Positions 12,301 through 64,000 of a stretch of 64,000 nucleotides of DNA are shown here, piece after piece (the stretch's first letter is position 1; every line of letters begins with the position of its first letter). Under the pieces are notes generated by a model. The model made no database searches and was not told where the DNA came from. It worked only from the letters and a program-made list of their open reading frames with translations. Source of the DNA: Amphiura filiformis (taxonomy: Eukaryota > Echinodermata > Ophiuroidea > Amphilepidida > Amphiuridae); the NCBI RefSeq assembly GCF_039555335.1, contig NC_092628.1, forward strand, positions 67,505,292-67,569,291. The letters run 5' to 3'. A program made the position numbers and the translations under genes.

Positions 12301-12761
12301 CATTGTAGCATCTATCAAAGGCATACATATTGCCCGGTCCTGGATCAAACTTCTCGTCTAAAATGACGGGCAGACAGGTGGCTAGCTAATTAATACTGAC
12401 CTGGAACCTCTTTATACAGCAGAGGCAAAGATTTCATTAAATGTACCATACTTCTATCTTTATATGATGTACATAGGAATACACAGAGTATATACAGACA
12501 TTTAATATTGAAGTGTTGAACTTATTTCTTTTGTCATAGAATTTAAGTGGAGTGACTGTTCTTAAGGTAGGTATTTGTTCAAGGCATGCAGCAGTGGAAT
12601 GGGACTCCACCATGAGTGATTTCTCATTATAATAATAACATAACACATTAAGGTATTGGCCTCTGATGCATGGCTTTGGATATGAAAACTGAATGCATAT
12701 GAAATGAATTTTCTAAAACACATGGAATAAATTGGATTTCTTTTTTGTTATCAACTTGCAG

Positions 12762-14932
12762 GTCCTACAGGAGTAACCTCACCCAATGACAGAAGTCCTC
12801 ATTCACCCGACCATTCCACAGGAGGGATGAGTAGCCGAGATCCAACACCACCCCCATCACCACCACCCCAGGTCCCACCAAGAAGAGCCCATAGTAATGG
12901 GCCAGTACAGAGAGTACCCAGCAACGCATCTGATCAACCTCAACCTCAACCTATTACTAGATCTCCTGCAACCCAACGAAGTAGATTAGTGCCAGGTGAG
13001 TTCAAATATAGGAGCTTACCAATGAGGTCACTCTGCTATCACAGGAAGGATGAGACCCATACCAACGTTTTCACCACCATCACCCCAGGTTCCACATAGA
13101 ATAAACCACAGTAACGTGGCAGTTCTAAAGAGTACCATATTAAACCTACTTTAACATCCTAGGGTTAAGGCCATCAATTTCAGGAGTGCTTTTAAGTTAT
13201 GAAATGAAAGTTACAAATGGAATTAATATACATAATTCAAAATACAGTGTATGAAGTCATCATCATATCATAAAGGTTTACTTTTATTCTGACACTTGAC
13301 ACATTCTACATAGAATAGTCTGGTACAGAGAGTGTACCAAACAAATGCATCTGATCTAGCAATTCCAATGGATCTTCTGAAAACTCCAGTGACATGTGAT
13401 TTTATAACATGGAAGCTTTGGTTATGATGCACACTCCCTTCTTGCAGTGCCATCCCTTGTTCCCATTGAAGAGTATATGGTAGTAGTCTTTAACAGCATT
13501 ATGGAGGAGCCTCGTACCATTGCATATTATCCCATTCTTCTAAAGGCTGGATTATTTCAGAGATTCATTATTCTGAAAAATATCACTGAATTAGTTGTTT
13601 GTTTTGCTTTCTTTCAGATGGTTCCAGCCATCCTACAAACAACAATCCTGACAGCAGTAGCCCTAATGCTGACCACCCTCTGTCAGATTACCCATGGTTC
13701 CATGGGACATTATCAAGAATTGATGCAGCTCAGTTGGTCCTTCAAGGAGGTGGTCCAAGACATGGTGTATTCCTAGTCCGGCAAAGTGAAACCCGTAGAG
13801 GAGAGTGTGTGTTGACATTTAACTTTCATGGCAGACCTAAGGTAGGAATACCGCCTAATTTACAAATTCTTTATTGGTTACAATCTGAAGAAATATTTAT
13901 TTATCCCAAGGAGATTAGACAGATCCGGACTATGCCATGTTTGCATGTTACTCATGGAGAGTAATGTATAATGAAAGACAGAGATAAAAAGACTAGTTTG
14001 TGTCTGAAATTCTGACAACTAGACAGAAAATGCAGTACTGCGCAGGATGGCAACCAATCACAGCGCGGCTTTGCCCTGACATCGGATGCCAACTAGTCTT
14101 TTTATCTCTGTCTTTCATTATAGTGTACCTCCAGAATATTTCAACATGTGGCCATTATACATATATAGTTTTTTTTTTCGCATTCTGTGTGTAACACAAA
14201 TTAAGTGCTTCATGCATAAACCATGCGTTATGAAGACTGGTTATCGCTTGGATTTGGCCTCTAACCCCATACATCAGAACCAGGGTTTTCTTAAATGCTC
14301 AAATAACACAAATATATGTGCTCATGCATGATACCCCTTCAAGTCCAAAATTTTGAAAACGTATGTGTTGAAATATTTCATGATTTGATGTAGAAAGACC
14401 TGATACTTTCATCTGGGATTGCTCCCCCCCCCCACACACTTTTTAGATTCTTTAGCACACTGTGCATACTTTCAAATATGTTCAAGTTGTTTGTAGATAT
14501 TTTGACAATCCTTTGTTTTAATCATTTCCACAGCACCTGCGGTTAACACTTGACACAGATGGTAGATGTAAAGTTACACACATGTGGTTTGAAAGCATAT
14601 TTGATATGCTAGAACATTTCCGATCGCACCCCATCCCTCTTGACAGTAGGGACGGTGCCACACAGCCGGATGTCACACTAACTGAATATGTCCCAAATGC
14701 GCAGTCGGTCAGCACACCAAGTACGCCGCTGACCCCACAGAGTCCAGAAGAGATGAATCAAAACATGGATCCACTCATGACTGGAGCTGAATTTGAAACC
14801 GCTGGAGGTGGTGAATTTCCATTGACCATAAATGGGGCAGCACCACCACAAGGTCACTCATCATTAGATGGACAAGGAGGACCAACGAGAGGATCCAGTC
14901 GGGCTGTGCGGAACCAGTATTCTTTTGTATAA
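12762..14932 (+). CDS. SH2B: SH2B/APS/Lnk adaptor protein, C-terminal exons
   Basis: Three joined exons, 12762-12995, 13618-13841 and 14534-14932, give the last 284 residues. Each boundary has AG/GT and matching phase. The first exon is rich in Ser, Pro and Gln. The SH2 domain starts at [10 protein letters not shown]; its [12 protein letters not shown] carries the phosphotyrosine-binding Arg of strand B, and it ends near LTEYV. These match vertebrate SH2B proteins closely. After a Thr/Ser/Pro-rich tail the protein ends [10 protein letters not shown]. This fits the known APS-family motif RA(V/I)xNQY(S/T), which when phosphorylated binds the Cbl kinase-binding domain. The family scaffolds insulin, JAK and other receptor-kinase signalling at the plasma membrane. 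The N-terminal dimerisation and PH domains must lie in exons upstream, which I did not find with confidence. Vertebrates have three paralogues; I cannot say which one this best matches. Confidence 0.95.
13025..13412 (+). pseudogene. Decayed copies of the SH2B proline-rich exon
   Basis: The intron after the first SH2B exon contains sequence homologous to that exon. 13040-13133 aligns with about 12810-12920: shared ACAGGA.GGATGAG, then CACCCCAGGT.CCAC and a final AGAGTACC. A second piece at about 13306-13400 aligns with about 12880-12975: TACAGAGAGT.TACC, GCATCTGATC, then GATCT.CTG. The second piece shares CTACATAGAATA with the first piece rather than with the intact exon. Both lack an open frame joined to good splice sites and look non-functional. 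Confidence 0.7.
13967..14122. mobile_element. 156-bp palindromic MITE in SH2B intron
   Basis: Perfect inverted repeats of about 31 bases start TATAATGAAAGACAGAGATA and run to GACTAGTT, with TA at both outer ends, as in Tc1/mariner-type insertion. It lies in the intron that divides the SH2 domain coding sequence. No coding content. Confidence 0.9.
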
Positions 14933-31365: not shown

Positions 31366-34300
31366 TCATTTCACTTCTGCAACCGGTACAAAATGTTGGT
31401 AGTATCCCCGTGTGAGATCAATCATCAGATCTTGTGTACATTCAGGTAATTCTCCAGATACCACTCCTGCAGAAAATAATGAGAAAATACTTATTATATA
31501 TTATATTATTATATATTATATATAAGCTAACAGAATGGTTGGCTGCAGATCCGTCGGATAATGCTTTTTCAATGGGAAATGATGATATCACAATGAGGTT
31601 AGTTAGGGTTAGGGTTTAGGGTTAAGGAGCATATTCCGACGGATCTGCACTCGACCGGCTCACTGATGGTCTGGTATGAATAATTTATTAACAGGATGGT
31701 CTAGGATATTGATAGGATAATTATCTCAGATAAATAGTCCAGATGATTAGATCTAATCTATTTTCAAATTTCACCTTCTACCTGGATGTAACAATTCACT
31801 AATGTCTTTTAAGCATGATAGTTAAAACTATCATGGTTAATGTGTCTTATTTCTCACAACTTCAAACTAAATCGCCAATTATCTGTCACTTTTGGCCTTT
31901 GTCAAAAAGTATTTTAATACTTTTTGACTCTTAAAAGAGTATATTATCTTGGTGTCCACAAAACACTAATATGATGGCCTTTCTATAGCATTACACATGA
32001 AGCTGCATAAAGTTTGCTTTCTCCAGTCGACCAATTTAGATCTAAGGTATGTGCACACAAAATTACAGAAATACAAAACACTAGGGGTGCATGTCTTCTC
32101 CCTATCTATGAATACTTCAATTACCTGGTGAGCCAGAATAGACAGTAAATGGTGGCACTACTGTCTCTGGAGGCAGATAAGTATTATCAGCTATTGCACA
32201 ACAGTCCTTTAACACACAACGACGACCCTGCAAACAAATCACAACATTAACCATCTTAATGTTATATGTTTCTATCATTTGTTATCATTGATTTAGTTTT
32301 TAGTTATTGTTTTACTTTTGAATCATTTCTACTTTCTAACAGATGTTAATGTGAAGGTACACACACGCTATTACTACACAAATCATTGTTTACAAAGGAA
32401 ATACAAGGAAGAGAACCCATTTCACTGGGGATTCTTTTTTTTTTCTCATTTGAAGTTTGACTCAAATTCTAACCTACTATAGTTAAGATAATCCTTTGAT
32501 ACACCTGTTTTGTTTAGTTTTATTGTTACAATTACATTGGAGACAGAAGTATTTATTCAACCATAAATGCAACAATGGATAAAAGAATACAGACATAATA
32601 AAAGAAATCATACTTACTATAACACAGTTCTTTCCAATATGTACAAATGACCCAACTTGTGCAGCATTAACAACACAGTCCTCTTCTATATACACATGGT
32701 CACCAATATGCAATGGGAAAAATGCAACACTGGGGAGAGAAGGAGACAACAACATTATGCTTAGTATGATTATTACTTAATGGTAGCGATGACCTCATAT
32801 GAAAAACCTTCCTAAAGCTCTGATTCCGGATGGCGATGATTAATTAGTTAGAGGTTAATAACTGCGCATCGGTTATTTGGAGGGCATTGTGAAAAATCTA
32901 AACATTTTGCCTTTAGAACCAAGGGATATTCCAAGGTCCAAAGCAAAATGTTTAGATTTTTCACAATGCCCGACATATTACCGATGCAAAGTTATTAACC
33001 TCATTCATAACCGTTACTTTCATCTCTTCACTTTAACAAAATAATACACCATTTTCCTAAAATTTTACGTTTTGCCTTTCCAAAAATCGATCAGGCTAAT
33101 ACAGGATGACCAATAACAGAAGTGCGAATAACAATCTGTGCAAAGTACTTGTTTATGACACAACATCCAAAGTACTTTGATTTCTTACAAGTTTCTCATT
33201 TCAATGAATCATAAGGTTATAGGAACAGGTCAAAGTTCAAAGTTTATTTGTTTTCAATCAAAACACATTAAAAAAACACCAAAATATATCAAAACAAAAA
33301 ATAACAACAACAGAACAGAGGTGCAACGATAGCCTGAAAGAGTACTTAACACCAACAAACAACCAAAGTTCAATTTACTTACCCTTTACTGAATTTTTTA
33401 AATGGAGGCCTTATCACAGTTCTCTGTCCAATAACACAGTGTCTGCCAATCCTTACATTTGCTAAATCACCTCGTATAATGCAGTCTGAGTGAATAATAG
33501 ACTGTGGCAAAGAAAAAGAAAAGCAACTCATCAAATACAACATTTATTACAATCGGGACTGGTACTATCAAAAATTTTACATCACCACAATCACATTACA
33601 GTCCAACCTCCCTTTTCCGGACCACTTTTATATCTCTTTTTTTTATATCTCTTTTATCCTTTATCCTGATGTCTGACCTTCATAGAAAAACCTGTTTGTA
33701 ATGCTTTGAAAGTTTGGTTTCGAACACTGAAGCTTTCATAGAAAGACATTTATTGGCATACATTGTACATCACTCATCATATACCATCTTGCAATGTTAT
33801 TGCGAGTAATTTTGCTGTCTCAATGTTAGCACTTCAGACATTTGATGCAGAATTACATGTAATTCACTTACCCTGGATTTCTCACTTACCTGGCCAATGC
33901 TTGGTCCCATCATGGCCAGATAAAAGAGGTTGGACTGTATTTGAAATTATTAATAAACTGTCTTCCTGCAGCAAAGTGGATGTCAGAGTACACCCCCACT
34001 CTGTTTTCCACAGGATAATAATGTATGTCTGCTCCTTGCAAAAAATATGTATCTCATTTCTATTTTACGTAGTTAAAGAGAAGATTGCTGCCGTTGCCAT
34101 TAACCATATGTTAAACTAATGTATTTTCAAATAAAAATGTAAACAAACAGATTAATTACTGATTTGATGGTTCACTTACCTTTCCATTAAGAACAATATT
34201 CTGACTCCCACACAGCACTGATTGACGACTCACTTTATTTCCTGAGGCCTGCAATTTAAAAGATTGTCTGTTATAACAAGTTGTTTGGATTAATTCACAT

Positions 34301-36937: not shown

Positions 36938-38254
36938 ATGCCATCTCACAAACGCAAAGGAGGATCTGGTGCGTCTGGAGACACCGGGAAAACAACGGCG
37001 GAGAATTCAACTAAAAGTGGCGAATCAGCCGACGCAGACCATAAACATGATAAGTCTGGCTCTCGAAAGCGTCGGCATCCAAAGTCAAAGGACAATGACA
37101 AGACTAAGTAAGGTCAAGATGATTTAATTCGGGTTAAGTTTCTGCCTTCTCAGCTCAGTTTTGTTGTAGAATTTTAAATTATTAAATTAAAGCCGAAGCA
37201 TTTAAAAGCACAAGCAAACTTCTGACTTTCTGTACAAATAATTCAACTTATCTTGGATCTTGGATTGGTAAACCTCCTAAATACTCCTGGGGAGTTTAAA
37301 CTTATGCAAATGAATCAACCACAGCTCATTATAACCCAATGACATCACCAGCTCAAATTACATCCCATTGAAATACATGTACAGTGTGTAACTGATGTAT
37401 AAAGTGGAACCAACATTACTCAAATTTCAAGGGCTTTTTGTAAAAAATTACAAGTTTTTCTGAGGTTTTCAAAGTTTTTCTACGGAAGTTTAAGGTTTAT
37501 TCAAAGCGGTAACCGGACATTTCATCCCCGCGCATATTCATCCCCTGGACGTTTCATCCCCTGGACATTTCATCCCCTGTACATTTCATCCCCTCACGTT
37601 AAAACGATATGGTAGGGTTCTTACAACTTGGCAGTGGATCAAGAATGCACATGAATATAATAATTGTTTAGAGTCTTGAACTTAAAAGGAAATAATATAA
37701 GGAATTAATCTGGGAAATTTTAAATGCTAGTAGTAGACGAGTGAGTGAAAAATCGATCAATGTTGAATGGCAGAAGCGTAGGACTAATAATAGGCCTACA
37801 TTGAATGAATGTATCTATTGAACAGTGTATACGTGCATAATGATTCTAATTCAGTAATAGGTGTATTCCGGGGGCGTATTACTCTTATTTGTTTTGTTAT
37901 TATTAACGGTATTAACATTTTGTTATTACCGGGGGTATCGCCAGTTTGTAGGCCCCTACCGTTATCATTATTATTATTACTACTATTATTAATTATATTA
38001 TTTAGGCATTAGTTTTTATAGCATGGAGGTAGAAGTAGTATTAGATTATTATTATAATTATTATTATTATCATTATTATTACTACTACTATTAATAATAT
38101 TATTAGGCATATTATTATTATAATTATTATTATTATTATTATTAGTGTTATTATTATTATTATTATATATTATTATTATTATATCAGTATTATTATTATC
38201 ATTATTATTACTACTACTATTAATAATATTATTAGGCATATTATTATTATTATT

Positions 38255-38290
<36 letters not shown>

Positions 38291-41200
38291 GTTATTAATA
38301 TTATTAGGCATATTATTATTATCATCATCATTATTATATTATTATTGTGTTGCTAAATTGACATCCGCACGTAAAATTGATATATCATATTGCTAGCAGT
38401 TTTCAGTATCTGCCAGGAAAACGAAGAGCTAGGTCCCCCTTTTTTTTAAATGATTATGGTTAGGTTTCCCGATAATATTTTATAGGGGCCTAGGCCCTAT
38501 TATTTTCCATCAAACAATGTACCTGATTTACTAAATTAGTGAAAATATTCCTGGAAAGCGCCGGGTGATGATGGTTTGATCAATGGCACTGTGACGCATC
38601 GAGGAAATATCCGGGAAATATCACTGAGCACGCATAAAAGCGACCATGACGGACCGATGTACGACAAGTCCTCGCGGCGCGACTGGTGGGGGAAAAGGCA
38701 CACAACAAAGATATAGGCCTAAGCCATGAATAAACTTGTTTTGTTACTACCTTTTCACTTGTATTATTTGTCATTATTATTATTGTGTTATTATTACTAT
38801 TATATTATAAGAAGATTTAGAAGCTTATAAAATGTGCAATCCATGTAACATTTATCTCATTTACTTATGTATGTGAAGATGTGAAAATAATACTGTCAAA
38901 TAACGTTCAGTGCAGACCTGTGCGTTTAAGACCAGTAACACGGTATTGATTGTATGTGGGCGATGGTTCTGAAATTAGTCTTGGCTCCCTTGAGGATTAG
39001 CGGTTAGCCTACATGTGATGGATTATGGGTTGCTGTATAGCGTTCATTGATTGGCATTTAACAGATCTCGCTTTAATCACAAAATCAAATCTTTCACGAC
39101 AGGGTTTCATTGGCTATCTTTAATTTATGGGCAGAGTTGGGCCAATCATATACCTTGCTTGCAATAATAGGCCTACACACCTTATGGCATAGCACTAGCT
39201 ATAATTCATGTAAACAACGCAACTGAATCCGCTACCAAATTACCAATGTGACATAAGTAGACCACCCTAACCACGTGGTCGCTCTTATCGCATTAAAGTT
39301 TGTTATTAAAAAACGCTTTTAAAGCGACTGCGTTGATAGACTAAGAAACTTGAAATTAAAGCCTTTGTAGGTCAACAGAGCAAAGTTCGGAAATTCAGAT
39401 CTAGTTCTACCAAGGATTCTGTCCAAATATACTATGGTTTTACTAAATATTCGTTTTACTCACATAATTTCTAGAAAACTACAACATTAACCCCCTAACT
39501 AGTTTGAAACTAGTTTGTTTGGTTCAGTAAAAGTTAGGTCGACTTTTCGAGAAAATGTCATGAATATGCCTATTTATTTCCTTCTATAAAGTTCTAAGTT
39601 CTAGATTCTTAACAATTACTATATATTCATATATATTCTTGATTCACTATCACTCAAAAACTACGCTAAAGTAGCATTTTAAGGGCTGTGCAATAATTAT
39701 GAGCCCTGGGGAGGGTAAAATTGGGGGGGCAAGAAATTTTGGCGAGCCAAAAGGGGGGCAAGCAATTTTGGCAAGGCGAGAGGGGGGCAAGCGATTTTTG
39801 GCACACATTCATGGGGCGTCTTTTTAATAAAACGCTCTAAAAAGGCTTAGGAAAACAGCACGGAAACGCTTAAATATGCAAATTTTCCTGCTGCTCGCCG
39901 CAACATACATCTAGACCATTTAAGGTTTGCAAATTGGGATCCCAAAAATTGGCATGTTCAAAGGGGGGGCAAAGATTTTTGGCGGGCCGAGAGAGACAGC
40001 GATTTTTGGCGGGCGAGAGGGGGGCAAGCGTTTTTGGCGAGCCGTTTGAAATTTTACCCGGGGAAAATAATTATTGCACAGCCCCTAATGTGAGGGGATG
40101 AAGTGTCCACAATGCGCGGGGATGAAATGTCCAGGGGATGAAGTGTCCAGGGGTTGAATATGCGAGGGGATGAAACGTCCAGTATTCATTCAAGCTACTT
40201 GTGTAGGAAGTAAAAGTGGAGACTGTCAAATGTTGATGGACAAAAGTAATATGCATGAGCATTTTTCATAGTCCAGAACAAATTTTCTTGAAAATCCATG
40301 CACCTGATTGGTCAGTTCAGTGCATGGGGTTGTAATGTGAGCAGCTCTGTGTGTGTACTGTTGGTTGGTGGTTTCCCAACTGTAGGTATCCCAGACAAAC
40401 CTTAGTTAACACATTTGCTAGTCAGCGAAATTCGCTGAAACCGGGGCTCAAACACAATGCATATTTACATAGAAATTTGAATTTTTTTCGAGAATAGGTC
40501 GGTGAAGGAAACCTACATAAATTATATGTTTTCTATACTTCACTTTACCCAAATATATGATTTTTATGGTGATAATCAAGTCGCACATGGAATTTTAGAG
40601 GGATTTTGATAGCAGTTTCATTAAAAAAAGCTGCTATCGCCATGAGACTAAGATCTAGAAACACCCCCGAAATGCCGTTTTGGGGAATTTTGCCAGCTGA
40701 ATCTTTTTGATGAAAGTCAATCTTTGACAAGATGTAACTTTGCTGCGGAAAGTGCTATGAAAAAAAGGTTTTCAGTGTTGGCTTTGTTTACTCAAGGGCT
40801 TTAATTTGATATATAAAATGATGCAGTTTGATGGCAAATTTGAATTCACCTAGCATACCTACCAACTGTGCAATTGATCATCATGGTGGTGGTACCTGGT
40901 GTATTCTCTTAATTATTTGTACAGTGCCAATAGTGAAAGTTTGGTTGTGCGAAGATGATCATCATGATTTAGGTATGAGAGGGAAACCTCTAGTGAGCAT
41001 GTCTAGTACAACAAGTCATTGTCTCGGTCCCAGCCGGTTTGTGTTCCTCCGTCACTAAACAAACCGTCTGGCGACAGCCCCGAAATGACGATCACTGATT
41101 GGTTAATGAATTTCCAAATAAAACTGCTTTCAATTGGCTATAGGACGTGACCTGTGAGTAAGTGACACTAAACATCATAGGATAGGCCCTCCACTATTTG

Positions 41201-47200: not shown

Positions 47201-50200
47201 GACAGTATAATATAGAGTACAGGTAGATGTTCAATTTATAATTTTGTATTGTAGAACAATATTGGTTTTTCACATTGCAGATTTATAACAGGATCTCAAA
47301 TGACTGATCATGTTTTTTCCTGTATTCTGTACATGTATCATGGCCTCCCCCCCCCCCACCTGGGCCCCCACCCAGCCACTGCTGTTGAAAGGGTAGGATG
47401 TTAATTTGAAAGAGTTTGTACATAGAAGTTAAACCATGTTTTATTTTTCTGTTTTGCAGGCATCTATTCTTGATCTACACTCTGGTGCATTATCAAAAGG
47501 CAATAAATTTATAGACATTTACAAGTAAGTTTTACAAAAGGATAATAACTTAGTTTGAATATGATGAACAGAGATGAAGGACAGTACCAACATTTCCATC
47601 TTGTTTCCATGTATCTAATTTTGATAATACTCTTGATTCATTATCAAAAGGCAATCAGCAAAATATCCCTCTATTTAAGCCATTTCATGTAGAAATTGGT
47701 CCTGTAAGTAATTAAAAGCCTTTGTTTGAGTTTTTTTCCCATTCTTTTGGCCAATTGCAACTTACCTGACCATGGAGGCTGGTATACTTGAAGATCAAAA
47801 AATTAAATGTGGAAGAGTTTGTCCCAATAGTGTTGGATATCAATAATGGGTGTATAATTCTGTAAATTGAAATATGGGTAAACTGAATTTATTTTCACTT
47901 TTTCTCACAGATATTTAGAAGAAGAAGGCAAGATTAATAGTGTATTCAGAAAAGAGGATTTTGATCTATACAGGTAAGATTAGGCATGTGATATTCAGTG
48001 AAACTCATCATACACTCAAACATTCACAGACATCCCACACATAACATGCCCCCATGTGTAATCATCTCATAATGTGGACACAGTTTAAGACTCTGCAAAT
48101 GTGGACGTCTGATTCCATCTACATACCAAGGATGTTTCCACCATTTTTTATGTGTATAAACATAAAATTTCACTTTGCATCTGTGGATGGTGTATCTAAT
48201 GTACGATGGAGGATTTATCTCGCAAATGCATTTTACATGCCATTGTAGACATTTGCAGACCTCCTTGAAGCAAGAGCAGCCCTTGTTGGAGAGAGTGCCC
48301 AGTTTAAATGTGAAAAGTTGTGTGTGTCCTCATTTGCCGGCAAACATGTATGCACCTCAACACCCAACACACACAAGAGATACATGAATAATAAAAACCA
48401 TCATTACCACTTGGTGTTCTTACCCATGTACCAATACTTTCATAAGTACATGAAAATAAACCATTCAATTATTGAAGCCATGAAGTGGATGATGATGATA
48501 TACATCAACAATATTTGACTGATGGAATCCATATGTGTTTTGTTTGCAGGACAGTATCTCATAAAATCCAGTTAGCCATATCAGGGGAGTATGGAATCCC
48601 TCCAAACAAGCTCTATCTCACACATCCAACATTCTTTTCACGCATGACAAATAAACCAGCTAAAACTATCCATGATGAATATTGGCATGTACACATAGAC
48701 AAGGTAAGAAATTGAGACAGAAAGGGAGAACGATAGCTTTTAAGCTATTAATTTCATTATATACATTTTGTATCAGTGAGGCAGTTGTTTTCATTTCTAA
48801 TTAGTTGGCTATATTATGTGGCATGGCTAGCAATTTCAGAATCAACCTAAAATATAAATGATACTTACCAGGACCAGGCATACTGATACATAATAAATTG
48901 AGACACTCAGCAGGGATTGAACACTGCTAAGTCTTTATTTAACTTGTCAGAAACCAGTTTTAGTTATTCCTTCATATAATTATACACAAAATTAGGGTAT
49001 TGATTAAGCTTAGGGTTATGATTAGCTTACATGAAATACTTACACAAAGGATTCACCAGTTTTAGAGGGTAAAGACCATTTTCAAAAACTTCATATTATT
49101 GCTATTTTGTAGCAAAATTCACTGAAAAGGGGTAAATTTAAAAGCTTTTCCACTCAATCTCCAATGTAGCTGTGGCCCAAAAAGAAGCTGTGGACAATGT
49201 CACATAAAGTCGCCAACAGCACAACCAAATTGGTAACCTTTTCTGTAATGTGTTCATGTGTATACTTTGATCAGCTCATAATCGACGGGCCTTATAACAT
49301 CGCGTATTGATATCAAAATATTTTATTTTGAGAATTTTCTTTTGACATCTCGCCAGCAGCATCACAAATTATTAATTCAAGTCCTATACTTTGTCTACTT
49401 TCTTTAACACACAAAATAAAGACCAGCCAGGTCTGCAAATAGCGCTCTTATCGTGGGTCTACTTTTCGGCGTAGTGGTAAAAGCCTAACATTTCCCGCCT
49501 ATTACGAGCTGATCAAATTATAGTGATGTTTGTATAAGTATTTGAAGTTATTTAGCTTTGTTTATTTCCCATGTACTAGAAATAGTATACTTCTTGGATG
49601 TCTGTTTGGTCCTGATGTCAGTGTGATTTTCGTGAAGATCAGGTTTAGTTCAAATGGCTTATGACTCACACATTTTCATTTTAGTTATTTTTACTGTAAT
49701 AAATCTATATATTTGTTTGTTTTTCAGGAAACATACAAAACCTTTGATTACACATCTCTCCTTTACCTCTCGGACTATGGCTCCGACTTCACAGGAGGGC
49801 GCTTTGTATTTGTAGACAAAGATGCTAATAGAACTGTGGATCCTAAGTTAGGTAAGCAAAATAAAGCAAAGTTAATTGATAGGATCTCTTGTAAAGCACC
49901 TTTTTGTAAAAAAAAGATGCATAATACTTTCACAATTCTTGAGTTCAATCTGGTCCAATCTGGGTAAACAAGTAAGTTGATAAAAACATAAGAGCGCTGG
50001 TGTCCATTTCACTAACATTATGACAGTTCGTAAACCTCAAAATCTATCAACTTGTGATGGTAGCCTTTGTAAGTAATATGGATTTACTTCAGGAGCCCTT
50101 CATAAAGTTATGACTATGGAAAGGATATTCGTAACTTGCGAACAGTTACTTGAGTTATGAATGGTTATTGAGTTATAAATCCAGTAGCATAATGCAGTGT

Positions 50201-58100: not shown

Positions 58101-61100
58101 TCGTGTTGAAGAGGGCACCCAAATGAAGAGCAATTCTATGCATGGTGGGTAAAGGTTTTCCACTTGTTTCCTATAACAAAGTATTATCGTGTCAAAAGGA
58201 TATCCAGGAATGGGTGCCCCCTTAGCCCGGGGGCGCGGCCCCAGAGCGCATAGGAGTTACGCCACTGAGTTAAATTACAGTTTTGGGTCGATTTAGTCCC
58301 AAGTTTTTTTAAACTTCAGAGGGCCAACTCCCGGGGGCCCAATTCCCCCTCCGTATATGCTCATGGTATATCACCAACCAAGATAGAAACAATACCTGAC
58401 GTTAATGAGATCAGGATATCAGAACCATTAAGATTACAAGAAAACATGATCATTATTTATACAACCGATTGAAAGGTAAGCGATGTCTTCCAACAGCGGA
58501 ACCCTAACCCTAACCATTCCTAACCCTAACCCTTATAACCCTAACCCTTAACTAACCCTAACCCTAAATTCTGCCTCCGGTGGTTGTAAGACATCGCTAA
58601 CCCGACTGAAAAGTTGTTATGGAATGATTACCATCGAGATCCAGTGAGAAAAAATGTCAGGTGGTGCAAATTACTCTTTATTACTCTTTCTTTACGCGGT
58701 CGCAAGAAGGTCATCGTGCACTTATGTCCACGGCAAATTCACCGTGACCTTTCCAGCCATTAACCTGCTTAGTGAAGATTAAACCGCACACAATTAAACC
58801 GAGATATGCAGTACTAAACCATTATAGTAATCGATTGTCCAACGCAAATTTATTACCACGTGATAATATTAATCCAATGAGCGATCGAATTGTCCGCTAT
58901 ACGGTCGACTAATCCAATCGATAATGACGCTATTGACATGTATGGGCGGAGCTCCACTGACTGAGTTTTGGGGTATTTTTTCACTGATTTGCTGTCATTT
59001 ACTCATCAAGGCGGTCCACCGTTATTATAAGGACTATGCTAATGATTTTAAAGATTGACATGTAGAGAATAAACCATACTTGATTGACAGAAAGTACTAA
59101 ATTTGTACCTATTACGGTTTCGTGACACCCCTCTTGCAAATGTGGCCAAGCCAGGGCGGCACGGTGAAGCAAAATGTGCATTGGAACTTGACACGGGAGT
59201 TTGGATATAGATGGTATATTTCTTTTTCATACAAATGTATGGTCCCCCCCCCCCCGTTATTAAAGCTTGTACGGGGTTGAAAATTCAGATATTTTTAAAA
59301 GAATAAGAAATTGAAACATAGAGAAAGTACTAAAATCATAGCTTTTATACTTTTTCATATATGACGCTAACTAGTTCATCTCATATATCTACAACACAGC
59401 GCTACCAGTAGGGTTCAATTGCCTATTCGCCCCTGTGTTGTGTGCATACATGTACTGCATGATGTTGTGGTGCTAAGGTATCTTGGGGAGACCTCCAGCC
59501 GGGAGCCGGCCCGCGTTAAGTTAGCCTGCAGTGGGTGGCTCATGTCATGAAGATCATGATCAGATCATGGCTTACCTACTACCCATAAATCAAATATTTT
59601 TTGTTTTACCAGCGTTTGTCATGTTCAATCCTGACCCAGTAGTCTGCGAACTTCGGCCACCAGAGAGCATTGCACTTCCGAATGCCAACAACGAATCCAT
59701 TACAGTGCAATGGACACACCCAACAGCAGAGATAGGACACCGTGTCTGTAATCAGGACGACCAAGGAATATTTTATGAAATCCGTTATTGGCGAGTTAAT
59801 AGAAATAAGACAGCTAGTAAAGTTGAAGTCAACACCACACAAACCAGATACCAACTTACAGGATTGAAATCTCGCAAATATTATTCTGTCCAGGTATATA
59901 CGTATAATAGGTCTTTTTTCACTGTATCTTTAAATTAAAAATGGTTATGAAATGTAAAACAACTCGAAACCGAAATGGGTTGCCAATGTATTTGATTTGG
60001 CTGCATTCTTGCATCATTTGCGCCAGAAATATAAATGGATGCAAACAACGAATAGCCTATATCAAGGCTACAAAGGGAGCTGATAGATCTCTTCTCAACA
60101 TGGACACACTTCCAAAAAGAATTATGAGCATGATCATTTAATAGTACAGTATTTACTTGATATATTTTTATATTGGTCCTTTGGTCCTAATAGCTCCTAA
60201 TGGCAGGACTTTCATAAAATTTTCCAAAGGTCCACCGTTGGTGAAGACGCGAATTGATTGGTCATTGCACGGTTTCAATGCATACAAACTCTATAGAGTT
60301 CAGAGTGTTCTGCAAGGAATGCTTTTGAAATAACTTCATAGAATGGTCTCTTTGTAGGGGCGATAGAAAAACCTTTCAGTATCATTATTGTAGAGTCAAT
60401 GAAGTAATGTATACGTGTCTTTCAAGTCTATTTTCAGTCTTCTGGGAGATTCCATACGGATGTCTTTCTTGCAAAGGCGTAAGCATTTTAAGTCTGCACT
60501 GGTCTTTCTAAATTGTCTTGTATCTTTACATGGGCATTCAAGGTTCAGTTTAAATCAGGCAGAATTTTGTTCACAGGACTCCGATGTCGCAGATTTGTTT
60601 AACAAGTTACATGATGTCTCAGTCTCTAGTTCTACATGTTTGTACCGACAATACAAAATTATATGATAGTTTCTCGTTTTAATTTTGTTCTTTGAAGATG
60701 AGGTTATCACAGCGAATTGGAATATCCGATGTGATTAGTAGTGCGTGGAGTGAAGCCCTGACACACGGTGCTGTAGACGGTGGTAAGTTCTAACATTAAT
60801 GCTGATCTTGGTTATTACCAGTTAACGATTAGGCCTATGAGGAATTATGACAAGGAATGCCCTCCTTGTATTTTTTTGCAATCATGCAAGATATCTTCTG
60901 GTCCTTTTTCTTTCCAAAAGCCCTACGTTATGTAGGCCTACTTAAATACTAGAATTACGCGGTTCGTAATTAAAAAACTATACACCACATGAGGCCACCA
61001 TATATACTATCACAATACCAAGTTTGAAGTTGATCGGTGATTGCGTTTAAGCTGGAGAGTGGATTAATGGGAATGAAGGCAAAATATGCAAATTAGCTCA

Positions 61101-63888
61101 TTAATATTCATAAATATGCAAATAAAATGACACAAAACTATTCAGCACATCAGGCCACCATATCCTATCACCGTACCAAGTTTGAAGTTGATCGGTGATT
61201 GCGTTAAAGCTGCAGAGTGGATTAATGACAATGTAGGCCAAATATGCAAATAAGCTCATTAATATTCATAAATATGCAAATAACATGAAACAAAAATATA
61301 CAGCACGTGAGGCCACCATATCACCGTAGCAAGTTTGAAGTTAACCGGTGGTTGCATTTAAGCTGCAGAGTGGATTAACGACAATGTAGGCAAAATATGC
61401 TAATGAGCTCATTAATATTCATAAATATGCAAATAATGCGACACAAAAGTATACAGCACATGAGGCAACCATATACTATCACCGTACCAAGTTTGAAATT
61501 GATCTGTGATTGCGTTTGTGCTGCAGAGTGGATTAAGGACAATGTAGGCAAAATATGCTAATGAGCTCATTAATATTCATAAATATGCAAATAATGCAAC
61601 ACAAAACTATACAGCACATGAGGCCACCATACCCTACCTCCGTACCAAGTTTGATATAATATTGGATGGCTGAGCATGATACCAAACATATCGGATGAGT
61701 CATAAAAATATCGGACGAGCCAACGGCGAGTTCGATATTTGTATGACGAATCCGATATGTTATGGTATCATGCGAAATAAGCCATCCAATATTATCATTA
61801 TTAGGCTTTCTTAACTCCTAATAACCCTGAAAACATAATAATGAAGTTGATCGGTGATAGCGTTTAAGCTGGAGAGTGGATTAATGAATTTGCTTCCGCC
61901 CGGACAAACAAAAAAAGAAACAAACAAAGAAACAAACAACGCAAACAAACAACCATCTGGATGATAACATAAGCCCCACATATATGTGGGGGCCAAAAAT
62001 AATAATAAAAAACAATAAGCATTATCTCGTTGACTTTTAAAGTTCCAGATGAACCCCAAAATCTGTCAGCCCCTGATGACGAGAAAAAGGAAACCAGCAT
62101 CGTCCTTAGGTGGAACGCACCTATTAACCCTAATGGACACATCTTGAAGTACACGGTAAGTATTATTTTAACAGATATTCTTAACAGAATGAGCATTAAA
62201 CTGTTCGTGGGCTCGCCGTTCAAAGGTTGACCCATTTTCGTCAAAATTTTAAACAGTATTTATTGCATACGAATTTATAAAACATTTGAACTAAACTGAA
62301 TAATTTATTATAATTAGTTAATTATTTCGATCCTTGCGCTATTATTGCCAGATTTCTTATCAGATGAAATCAGCTGAACATTCCAATACACCATTACGAA
62401 GTCTGAACATCAACCATGTCAACGACACATCTGCCACGCTTCACCACTTAGAAGAAGGCACTTCATACAAAATCTTGGTGACAGCGGGGACGAGGTTAGG
62501 AATGGGATCACCCGCCACATTAACTGTCGACACAAGAAATGATAGTATGTTCTGATTTGTTATATATATTTTGTTTGGCTTGATATTTTTGTTTGGTTTA
62601 TTTCATTTCTTGGATACCGAAATTCCGTGTTATTCTATTCTCATTCCAGTTTTGCTGATCATTGTTTTTCAGGTAGCCGAATAAATCTTGTTGTCATTTT
62701 TGGACTAAGTATCGCTGCTGTTGCTTTCATATTTATTGTTATTGCGATTGGAGTAAAAAGACATGTATCTCAGAACGTGAACACATGCGAAGTGAGTATG
62801 AATAGTTAGTATAAATCAAGAACACAAATTATGCAACACTGAAGCTATGAGTTTTGACGAAGTCGAACACAGCATTTTAAAACTTACAGCGAGTCCAATT
62901 AATTTGTGCAAGGTCCGAAAAAACAATCGATTCCATTTATATCATTATTATGTTTTCCGAATGTTAGTTGAGTAGGCAAATGAGGCTAGACGCTGTCCAA
63001 GTGGTGAAATAGCTGATAAACTAGTATGATATGTACAAAGGTATAGGATGCAAGATTCTGAAAAAATAATAATGTGAAAAAACTTGCCCTGTGTCACTTG
63101 GAAAAATGTCCAAACTTGACCAAAAACGGCAGAAATGACGATTAGGGGTGGAGAGTCAACCCCCGAACAAGCTCAAATATGCCTCTGACCCCCTCCAAAT
63201 AAGCCTCCAACATTCCCCCATTTATCCTTGCTTTTATTTGTTCTCCAGTTTAGCCCCTAGTTGATCATTTCAACCCCATGACATTGATTAAAGATCTGTA
63301 GTGGTTCAAAAAGCAGCCCACTGCCTCGGATATTGTCGGACAATACTTGGAAGTCTCTCTGGCACCAACCTTCATTATGTTCCTTTCTATCTCGCAGGAA
63401 CCACAATGTAGACCCAATAGATATGGGAGTGTAGAACCTGCTGACAATAAAATGCACCCAGAATCTCCTTGGACTATTAGCATGAACCAACTAACATTCG
63501 GCAAAGAAATAACCAAACATACAGGATATTACCAAATACGCAAAGGAAAATTCACGAGCCTTCGTGGCCAGACGACATCGGTTGTTGTTAAAACATGTGG
63601 TGGTAGGTATCAACGTTGCTCTCTTTGAATCGGGGGAAATATTGGGATTAATGGTATTGTAAAAAGGAAAAGGATAAAAAGAAAACGAGACAGATCTTCA
63701 ACAAACTGTACTCAATTATTGTTATATGTCATATTTGCATTGACCATTACTTTATATAATTATGTTCTTGTCTTCAGTTGCAGCTGATGTTGATACAAGG
63801 AGAAAACTGCAGAATGAATCGGAAATACTGAAATTAATTGGAGAATGTTATAACATTGTACAACTGATGGGTACATGCGAAAATCAAG
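55139..63888 (+). CDS. Receptor tyrosine kinase with two FN3 domains, 5' part
   Basis: Eight exons with GT/AG sites and continuous phase: 55139-55232, 59613-59893, 60698-60782, 62043-62155, 62352-62544, 62673-62791, 63398-63602 and 63778-63888. They encode about 400 residues and run off the window. A hydrophobic signal peptide (LTILLMYVTIFKAE) is followed by two fibronectin type III domains, each split over two exons (domain 1 from about PPESIALP with core ITVQW; domain 2 from VPDEPQNLSAP with IVLRW and GTSYKILVTA). Several N-glycosylation sequons are present. A membrane helix lies at about residues 259-283. The cytoplasmic part has WTISMNQLTFGKEI, a VVVK lysine (K360), and NESEILKLIGECYNIVQLMG, which aligns with the FGFR-type C-helix (Glu377) and following strand. 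The glycine-rich loop is abnormal. The subfamily is unknown to me. A PPG-like acceptor directly before the ATG suggests a spliced 5' non-coding exon. Confidence 0.92.
55556..56803. mobile_element. 1.25-kb TTAA-flanked TIR element
   Basis: TTAA lies at both borders (55556-55559 and 56800-56803). The inverted ends read TTTAAGTGGGTACTACACCC and the complement of TTTAAGGGCGTTCTACACCC. TTAA target sites are used by piggyBac and Kolobok transposases. The 77-codon frame at the left has no transposase signature. It lies in intron 1 of the receptor kinase gene. Confidence 0.72.
57684..58267. mobile_element. 584-bp non-autonomous hAT element
   Basis: A perfect 13-base inverted end, CAGTGGCGTAACT, is flanked by a perfect 8-bp duplication AGTTAAAT (57676-57683 and 58268-58275). 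The interior has GCGCGC-rich patches (57992-58010 and 58079-58092). It belongs with 2408-2694 and 20312-20492. Receptor kinase intron 1. Confidence 0.95.
58475..58602. repeat. Inverted repeat with telomere-like core
   Basis: GGTAAGCGATGTCTTCCAAC at the left and an inverted GGTTAGCGATGTCTTACAAC at the right frame 58500-58568, which holds about ten CCCTAA units with small errors. The enclosing arms argue for a mobile-element context rather than a chromosome-end relic. Confidence 0.85.
60945..61890. repeat. ~157-bp satellite array, five units, with MITE inserted
   Basis: Unit landmarks GAGGCCACCA occur at 60991, 61151, 61309, 61462 and 61620, giving spacings of 160, 158, 153 and 158 bases. Each unit has ACCAAGTTTGAAGTTGATCG, GAGTGGATTAATG-like sequence, and two ATGCAAAT motifs flanking CTCATTAATATTCAT. 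The last unit is split after CAAGTTTGA by a MITE-bearing insert and resumes at about 61840. It lies in the third receptor kinase intron. Confidence 0.92.
61655..61795. mobile_element. Palindromic MITE, family TATAATATTGGATGG, copy 2
   Basis: TATAATATTGGATGGC at the left and GCCATCCAATATTAT at the right are inverted; the centre pairs across ATATCGGACGAGCC.ACGGCGAGTTCGATAT. It interrupts the satellite unit, and the rest of the insert to about 61838 is AT-rich. TGA appears at both insertion borders. Confidence 0.85.
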
Positions 63889-64000
63889 GTATTATATCTT
63901 TAATTATGTACGAGGGTTGGTCAATAATATCCCGCAACCATTATTTATCTCCGCTCAGGCATGACTTAGATGACTGTTACTTACGATCAATAAAGTTTAT

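Follow-up and report, generated by a model that had tools for sequence, protein, structure and literature searches.

At the end of the window analysed (64,000 nucleotides of DNA from Amphiura filiformis, forward strand), a gene was recognized that appears to encode a receptor of the tyrosine-kinase type in which the glycine-rich loop of the kinase domain has lost its usual pattern. The question raised by this locus is whether such a receptor would still hold ATP and transfer phosphate, or would signal by other means. The original prediction, a receptor pseudokinase or a kinase with an unusual mode of ATP binding, is the natural reading of what the N-lobe suggests.

To describe the gene, splice sites and reading frame were followed on the forward strand from 62043 to 63888. 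Five exons are joined by four GT-AG introns, and the joined product comprises 246 residues in a single open frame with no stop codon, confirming that splice sites and phase are sound and that the exon carrying the loop is open. The first exon (62043..62155, donor GTAAGT) encodes the N-terminal half of the membrane-proximal FN3 domain (PDEPQNLSAP...ILKYT); its 5' border is uncertain by 6 bases, with two candidate AG sites, the other one ending at 62048. The second exon (62352..62544, acceptor TTGCCAG, donor GTATGT, end phase 1) encodes the C-terminal half (ISYQMKSAEH...VDTRND), and Pfam fn3 recognized the complete domain at residues 2-91 of the joined product (E 8.7e-14). The third exon (62673..62791), supported by hydropathy and exon borders, contains the transmembrane helix LVVIFGLSIAAVAFIFIVIAIGV (approximately 62687-62755) and the stop-transfer residues KRH, which directly follow the helix; the Kyte-Doolittle mean peaks at 3.13 (19-residue window) over LVVIFGLSIAAVAFIFIVI.

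Exon A (63398..63602, acceptor ...CTCGCAG, donor GTAGGT, end phase 1) carries the juxtamembrane region, beta-1, the degenerate loop, beta-2, and beta-3, and exon B (63778..63888, acceptor ...CTTCAG, donor GTATTA), with 111 nt and phase 1 at both ends, carries helix C and beta-4 and completes the V of VAADVDTRRKLQNESEILKLIGECYNIVQLMGTCENQ. Exons A and B joined read ...SPWTISMNQLTFGKEITKHTGYYQIRKGKFTSLRGQTTSVVVKTCGVAADVDTRRKLQNESEILKLIGECYNIVQLMGTCENQ and are continuous with the three exons upstream (FN3, FN3, and transmembrane). An alternative donor of exon A, cutting after GTAG and before GTATCA, was rejected, as joining it to exon B leads to a stop within 4 codons (by hand). An alternative acceptor of exon B (TTGCAG), 6 bases in, keeps the frame and loses 2 residues, leaving the loop unaffected. 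The juxtamembrane stretch between the transmembrane helix and the kinase N-lobe measures about 40 residues, and the domain order in one frame is FN3 ectodomain, single transmembrane helix, juxtamembrane region, and kinase N-lobe. The kinase domain is known here from its N-lobe, while the hinge, HRD, activation loop, and DFG lie beyond the window end at 64000.

A further FN3 domain was detected upstream on the same strand (59657..59914; Pfam fn3, best stretch at residues 3553-3638 in the frame that begins at 49001, with the coordinates worked out by hand) and is likely an ectodomain exon of the same gene. In the gap before the two membrane-proximal FN3 exons, a tandem array with a 158-base unit is present at 60974-61654 (4.3 copies, 86% matches), and a 45-base part of this unit occurs again at 61842-61886 (98%).

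The kinase identity of the N-lobe was assessed by comparison of an 83-residue query with PDB sequences. The query matched PYK2 (E 0.0014), KIT and FES (both E 0.005), FGFR4 (E 0.015), and CSF1R (E 0.02), and the best 60 of the 202 distinct sequences at E ≤ 10 were all tyrosine kinases, judged by name. With a variant of the query that contained a single spurious Gly where the two exons join, FGFR4 was the top match (E 0.0007; best 60 of 159 sequences at E ≤ 1). The Pfam profile PK_Tyr_Ser-Thr, run on the N-lobe alone, gave 19.4 bits (E 6.9e-4), below the family cut-off of 23.1 bits, and no kinase match for exons A and B was obtained in a Pfam scan of whole 5000-residue frames at E 0.5. By sequence alone the kinase homology can be called real, though modest. 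The identification is based on this homology together with the place of the region after the FN3 and transmembrane segments, the LTFGKEI stretch, the V-x-V-K motif, and the C-helix, in which NESEILKLIG stands in register with SEMEVMKLIG of FGFR4. In our judgement, the assignment to a receptor tyrosine kinase is secure, the locus holding the 5' part of the gene for a single-pass animal receptor; any placement in a family is tentative, because the non-receptor kinase PYK2 scores slightly above the receptor matches.

The segment TKHTGYYQIRKG (63512..63547) stands in place of GxGxFGxVxKG and reads, with its flanks, KEI-TKHTGYYQI-RKGKF. In an ungapped alignment with FGFR4 through the whole loop, made with the query variant that contains the spurious Gly, T, H, and Y stand over the three glycines. 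In the PYK2 alignment YYQI lies over FGEV, and the Pfam alignment begins with Y44 at profile position 12 or, in a second run, with Y45 at position 13. Positions 12 and 13 of the profile are presumably the loop F and the third Gly. If the register is anchored on FGxV in this way, glycines 1, 2, and 3 correspond to K40, T42, and Y45 of exon A, with T39 as one extra residue ahead; only the third position is program-aligned, K40 and T42 being counted back by hand. In both registers none of the three glycines is kept, and the sole Gly of the loop, G43, occupies no conserved position, so that the predicted loss of the loop pattern, with at most one glycine where three are expected, was borne out in full, and the GxGxxG loop of active kinases is absent.

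The remaining N-lobe residues are better preserved. VVVK (63581..63592) aligns with VAVK of FGFR4 and PYK2, and the first E of NESEILK (63816..63818), which we take to be the C-helix glutamate, stands in the alignment over SEMEVMK of FGFR4. The lysine and the glutamate had been described as kept and both are; the replacement of the VAVK alanine by Val in the same motif had been overlooked. A second change missed in the first reading is the presence of Ile at the small spine residue of beta-2. The VAVK alanine lines the purine pocket, and CK2, an active kinase, also has VVVK, so the Val alone does not imply inactivity. The beta-2 spine residue is normally V, A, or G, as tabulated in PMC7586955, and with both positions changed an alteration of the nucleotide pocket becomes more likely. 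An AlphaFold2 single-sequence model of exon A placed strands at residues 32-42, 45-53, and 59-67 with a tight turn at 43-44, its low confidence (mean pLDDT 52.9, pTM 0.34) making it too unsure as evidence.

To look for a restored loop, the pattern GxGxxG was searched in all six unspliced frames of 62793-64000 and was absent, and GxGx[FY]GxV was found in none of the 1607 six-frame ORFs (≥ 25 aa) of the window. It is thus unlikely that the loop is restored by a frameshift or a hidden exon, and another exon with GxGxxG, the finding that had been named as contrary to the original prediction, was not seen in the unspliced frames of 62793-64000; frame scans of this kind are blind to a motif split across a splice junction. 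One such arrangement would be a main transcript that omits exon A and uses instead a mutually exclusive exon with a canonical loop, and a motif divided by the junction would have escaped the scan. This exon would be expected between the transmembrane exon, ending at 62791, and exon B, starting at 63778, where the unspliced frames contain no GxGxxG, and exon A joins both of its neighbours in phase; we consider this arrangement highly improbable.

With regard to a second kinase gene, the same 1607 ORFs gave no match to DFG, none to APE, and 7 HRD-like matches. A Pfam scan at E 0.5 of the three forward frames of 34001-64000 also found no kinase, a weak result given that the same scan missed exons A and B. 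Other features of the window are an exon of an SH2-domain protein at 13590-13961 on the forward strand (Pfam SH2, E 6.5e-10) and an exon of dynactin subunit 5 at 32486-32776 on the reverse strand (Pfam DCTN5, E 1.1e-19). The ORFs 12731-13096 and 14522-14929, for which no supporting Pfam match was obtained, are by eye what we take to be the rest of an SH2B-type adaptor. A forward ORF at 49665-49964 with YLSDYGSDFTGGRFVFVDKD resembles by eye a 2-oxoglutarate/Fe oxygenase and gave a weak Pfam Oxygenase-NA match (E 0.015) under the cut-off. Microsatellites are located at 727-1037 (AAAG, 78.5 copies) and 38045-38346 (ATT, 101 copies), and no Rfam matches at gathering scores and no tRNAs (ARAGORN) were detected in the window.

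Relatives were also sought by pattern searches, which gave 3 matches in viral contigs and 71 in prokaryote genomes, with no confirmed relatives in either; since these collections are made up of viruses and prokaryotes, animals being outside them, absence in animals is not implied. No description of a receptor kinase with such a loop was found in the titles and abstract openings of the papers listed by the literature searches.

Taken from the N-lobe, the best reading of this locus is that it probably encodes a receptor pseudokinase acting as a binding or allosteric partner. It is favoured by the intact five-exon frame, the order FN3, transmembrane helix, and N-lobe, the loss of all three loop glycines with no GxGxxG found, and the change of the VAVK alanine to Val; loss of at least one canonical motif, characteristic of pseudokinases, is seen here in the glycine loop and in this alanine. 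The reading is weakened in that active kinases likewise have the kinase lysine and the C-helix Glu seen here, that HRD, DFG, and the remaining kinase domain are outside the window, that the Pfam score is under the cut-off and the loop is known from one sequence, and that loop degeneration alone excludes neither ATP binding (ILK) nor activity (WNG1).

In a receptor pseudokinase of this kind, the retained beta-1, beta-2, and beta-3 strands, beta-3 lysine, and C-helix glutamate could allow the fold and an active-like position of the C-helix to persist. The loop would be unable to fold around the phosphates of ATP as it normally does, since Lys, Thr, and Tyr replace the three glycines, and the purine pocket would have a bulkier ceiling, with Val for Ala in beta-3 and Ile for a small residue in beta-2; ATP binding may accordingly be weak or absent. 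The FN3 ectodomain would bind a ligand, and the receptor would signal through a partner, with no phosphate transfer of its own, either as the pairing partner of an active receptor kinase, which it would switch on allosterically, or as a substrate and docking platform of that kinase. Receptor pseudokinases are described in PMC13259870 as signalling by non-catalytic means. If this were true, two roles of the N-lobe would be split, the active shape held by the lysine-glutamate pair and the grip on ATP, lost with the loop, and a receptor keeping the pair without the loop would serve as a natural experiment on which of the two receptor signalling needs.

A receptor kinase that has kept its catalytic activity, other features making up for the absent loop glycines as proposed for Toxoplasma WNG1, is conceivable though unlikely. 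The basic residues K40, H41, R48, and K49, together with ATP repositioned by the Val in VAIK, would then replace the backbone contacts of the glycines. According to PMC6442604, WNG1 is active even though the Gly-loop is missing from WNG kinases, which make use of basic residues near its former site; Val is preferred at their VAIK alanine, where a bulkier residue usually hinders ATP binding, and the V344A change left about 20% of activity. The loop described here is likewise basic, with no glycine in register, and is followed by VVVK. However, WNG kinases are reported there to lack beta-1 and the whole loop structure, replaced by a helical extension, and to have other compensating features, located in the DFG motif and in a helical lid. 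In the present gene no such replacement is seen: LTFGKEI (beta-1) aligns with FGFR4, and the low-confidence AlphaFold2 model likewise puts a strand there; the DFG lies past the window, and a single Val with some basic residues may easily arise without such a role. That an animal receptor tyrosine kinase with none of the three loop glycines should be active and hold a shifted ATP, a case of convergence on the solution of WNG1 in a metazoan receptor, is quite unlikely. It is doubtful, too, that the receptor is an inactive pseudokinase of the ILK kind, with ATP bound through loop side chains as a structural cofactor, a sub-case whose probability is counted inside the pseudokinase reading. ILK, in which loop glycines 1 and 2 are both Asn, uses these side chains to bind ATP at micromolar affinity and is inactive (PMC4718504). 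Lys, Thr, and Tyr differ from Asn, and Tyr is a bulky residue in the place of glycine 3.

Alternatively, the loop may have drifted once constraint was relaxed, in a gene at an early stage of decay or in a shortened paralogue of a normal receptor kinase. This would agree with a visible part limited to the N-lobe, with the Pfam score below the family cut-off, and with a codon usage that fails to single out the frame of exon A (0.067 in its own frame against 0.124 in another, from 359 training codons). The exon A score was reached by 69 of 5000 random windows and by 84 of 832 open random 204-nt frames, that of exon B by 344 of 5000 windows, and the low score of the transmembrane exon, scored one base out of frame, by 4522 of 5000; codon usage is uninformative for coding status. 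Against decay stand the 246 codons open over five exons with four GT-AG introns, for which a rough hand calculation gives a chance of about 2e-7 (stop frequency 0.060 per codon in 60001-64000; the exons were chosen open), as well as the retained lysine and C-helix Glu. General decay is further disfavoured because the strand pattern and the R-K-G-K-F after the loop are both kept, and we regard early decay or truncation as improbable.

With the pseudokinase reading preferred, the receptor was compared with known kinases. The helix C and beta-4 exon of FGFR and KIT genes also has 111 nt, and the ectodomains of FGFR, KIT, and CSF1R have Ig domains. These kinases are the best receptor matches by sequence, FGFR4 sharing in register the W-x6-L-x-x-G-K lead-in, V-x-V-K, and helix C, but the present gene differs in the FN3 of its visible ectodomain, the absence of loop glycines, and the change of the VAVK Ala to Val. 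They belong to the FPVR subgroup (FGFR/PDGFR/VEGFR/KIT/RET), for which PMC8662651 describes a conserved hinge asparagine, the 'molecular brake'.

VRK3, ILK, and the Tribbles proteins, which belong to different kinase groups, are non-receptor proteins, in contrast to the present one, and are similar to it in the degree of glycine replacement. In VRK3 two of the loop glycines are Thr and Asp, the purine pocket is filled, and no nucleotide is bound (PMC4718504), a parallel that favours the pseudokinase reading. The Tribbles loops read EREHVS in TRIB1 and EGDHVF in TRIB2 (PMC7586955). The WNG kinases, alike in the missing glycines, the Val, and the basic residues near the WNG1 loop, are secreted parasite kinases without beta-1, WNG1 having been shown to be active (PMC6442604).

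The plan of ectodomain, transmembrane helix, and kinase domain with altered nucleotide motifs is common to PTK7, ROR1/2, RYK, STYK1, HER3, EphA10, and EphB6, for which changes in HRD and DFG are known, while the present gene is seen from its N-lobe. Following Table 2 of PMC13259870, the VAIK alanine is likewise exchanged for a larger residue in PTK7, RYK, STYK1, and HER3, and each of the 8 human receptor pseudokinases retains at least two of the three loop glycines, compared with none here. None of these 8 proteins has a loop as degraded as the one described here. Receptor pseudokinases and glycine-free loops are each already known, and this receptor carries an extreme loop of a known kind.
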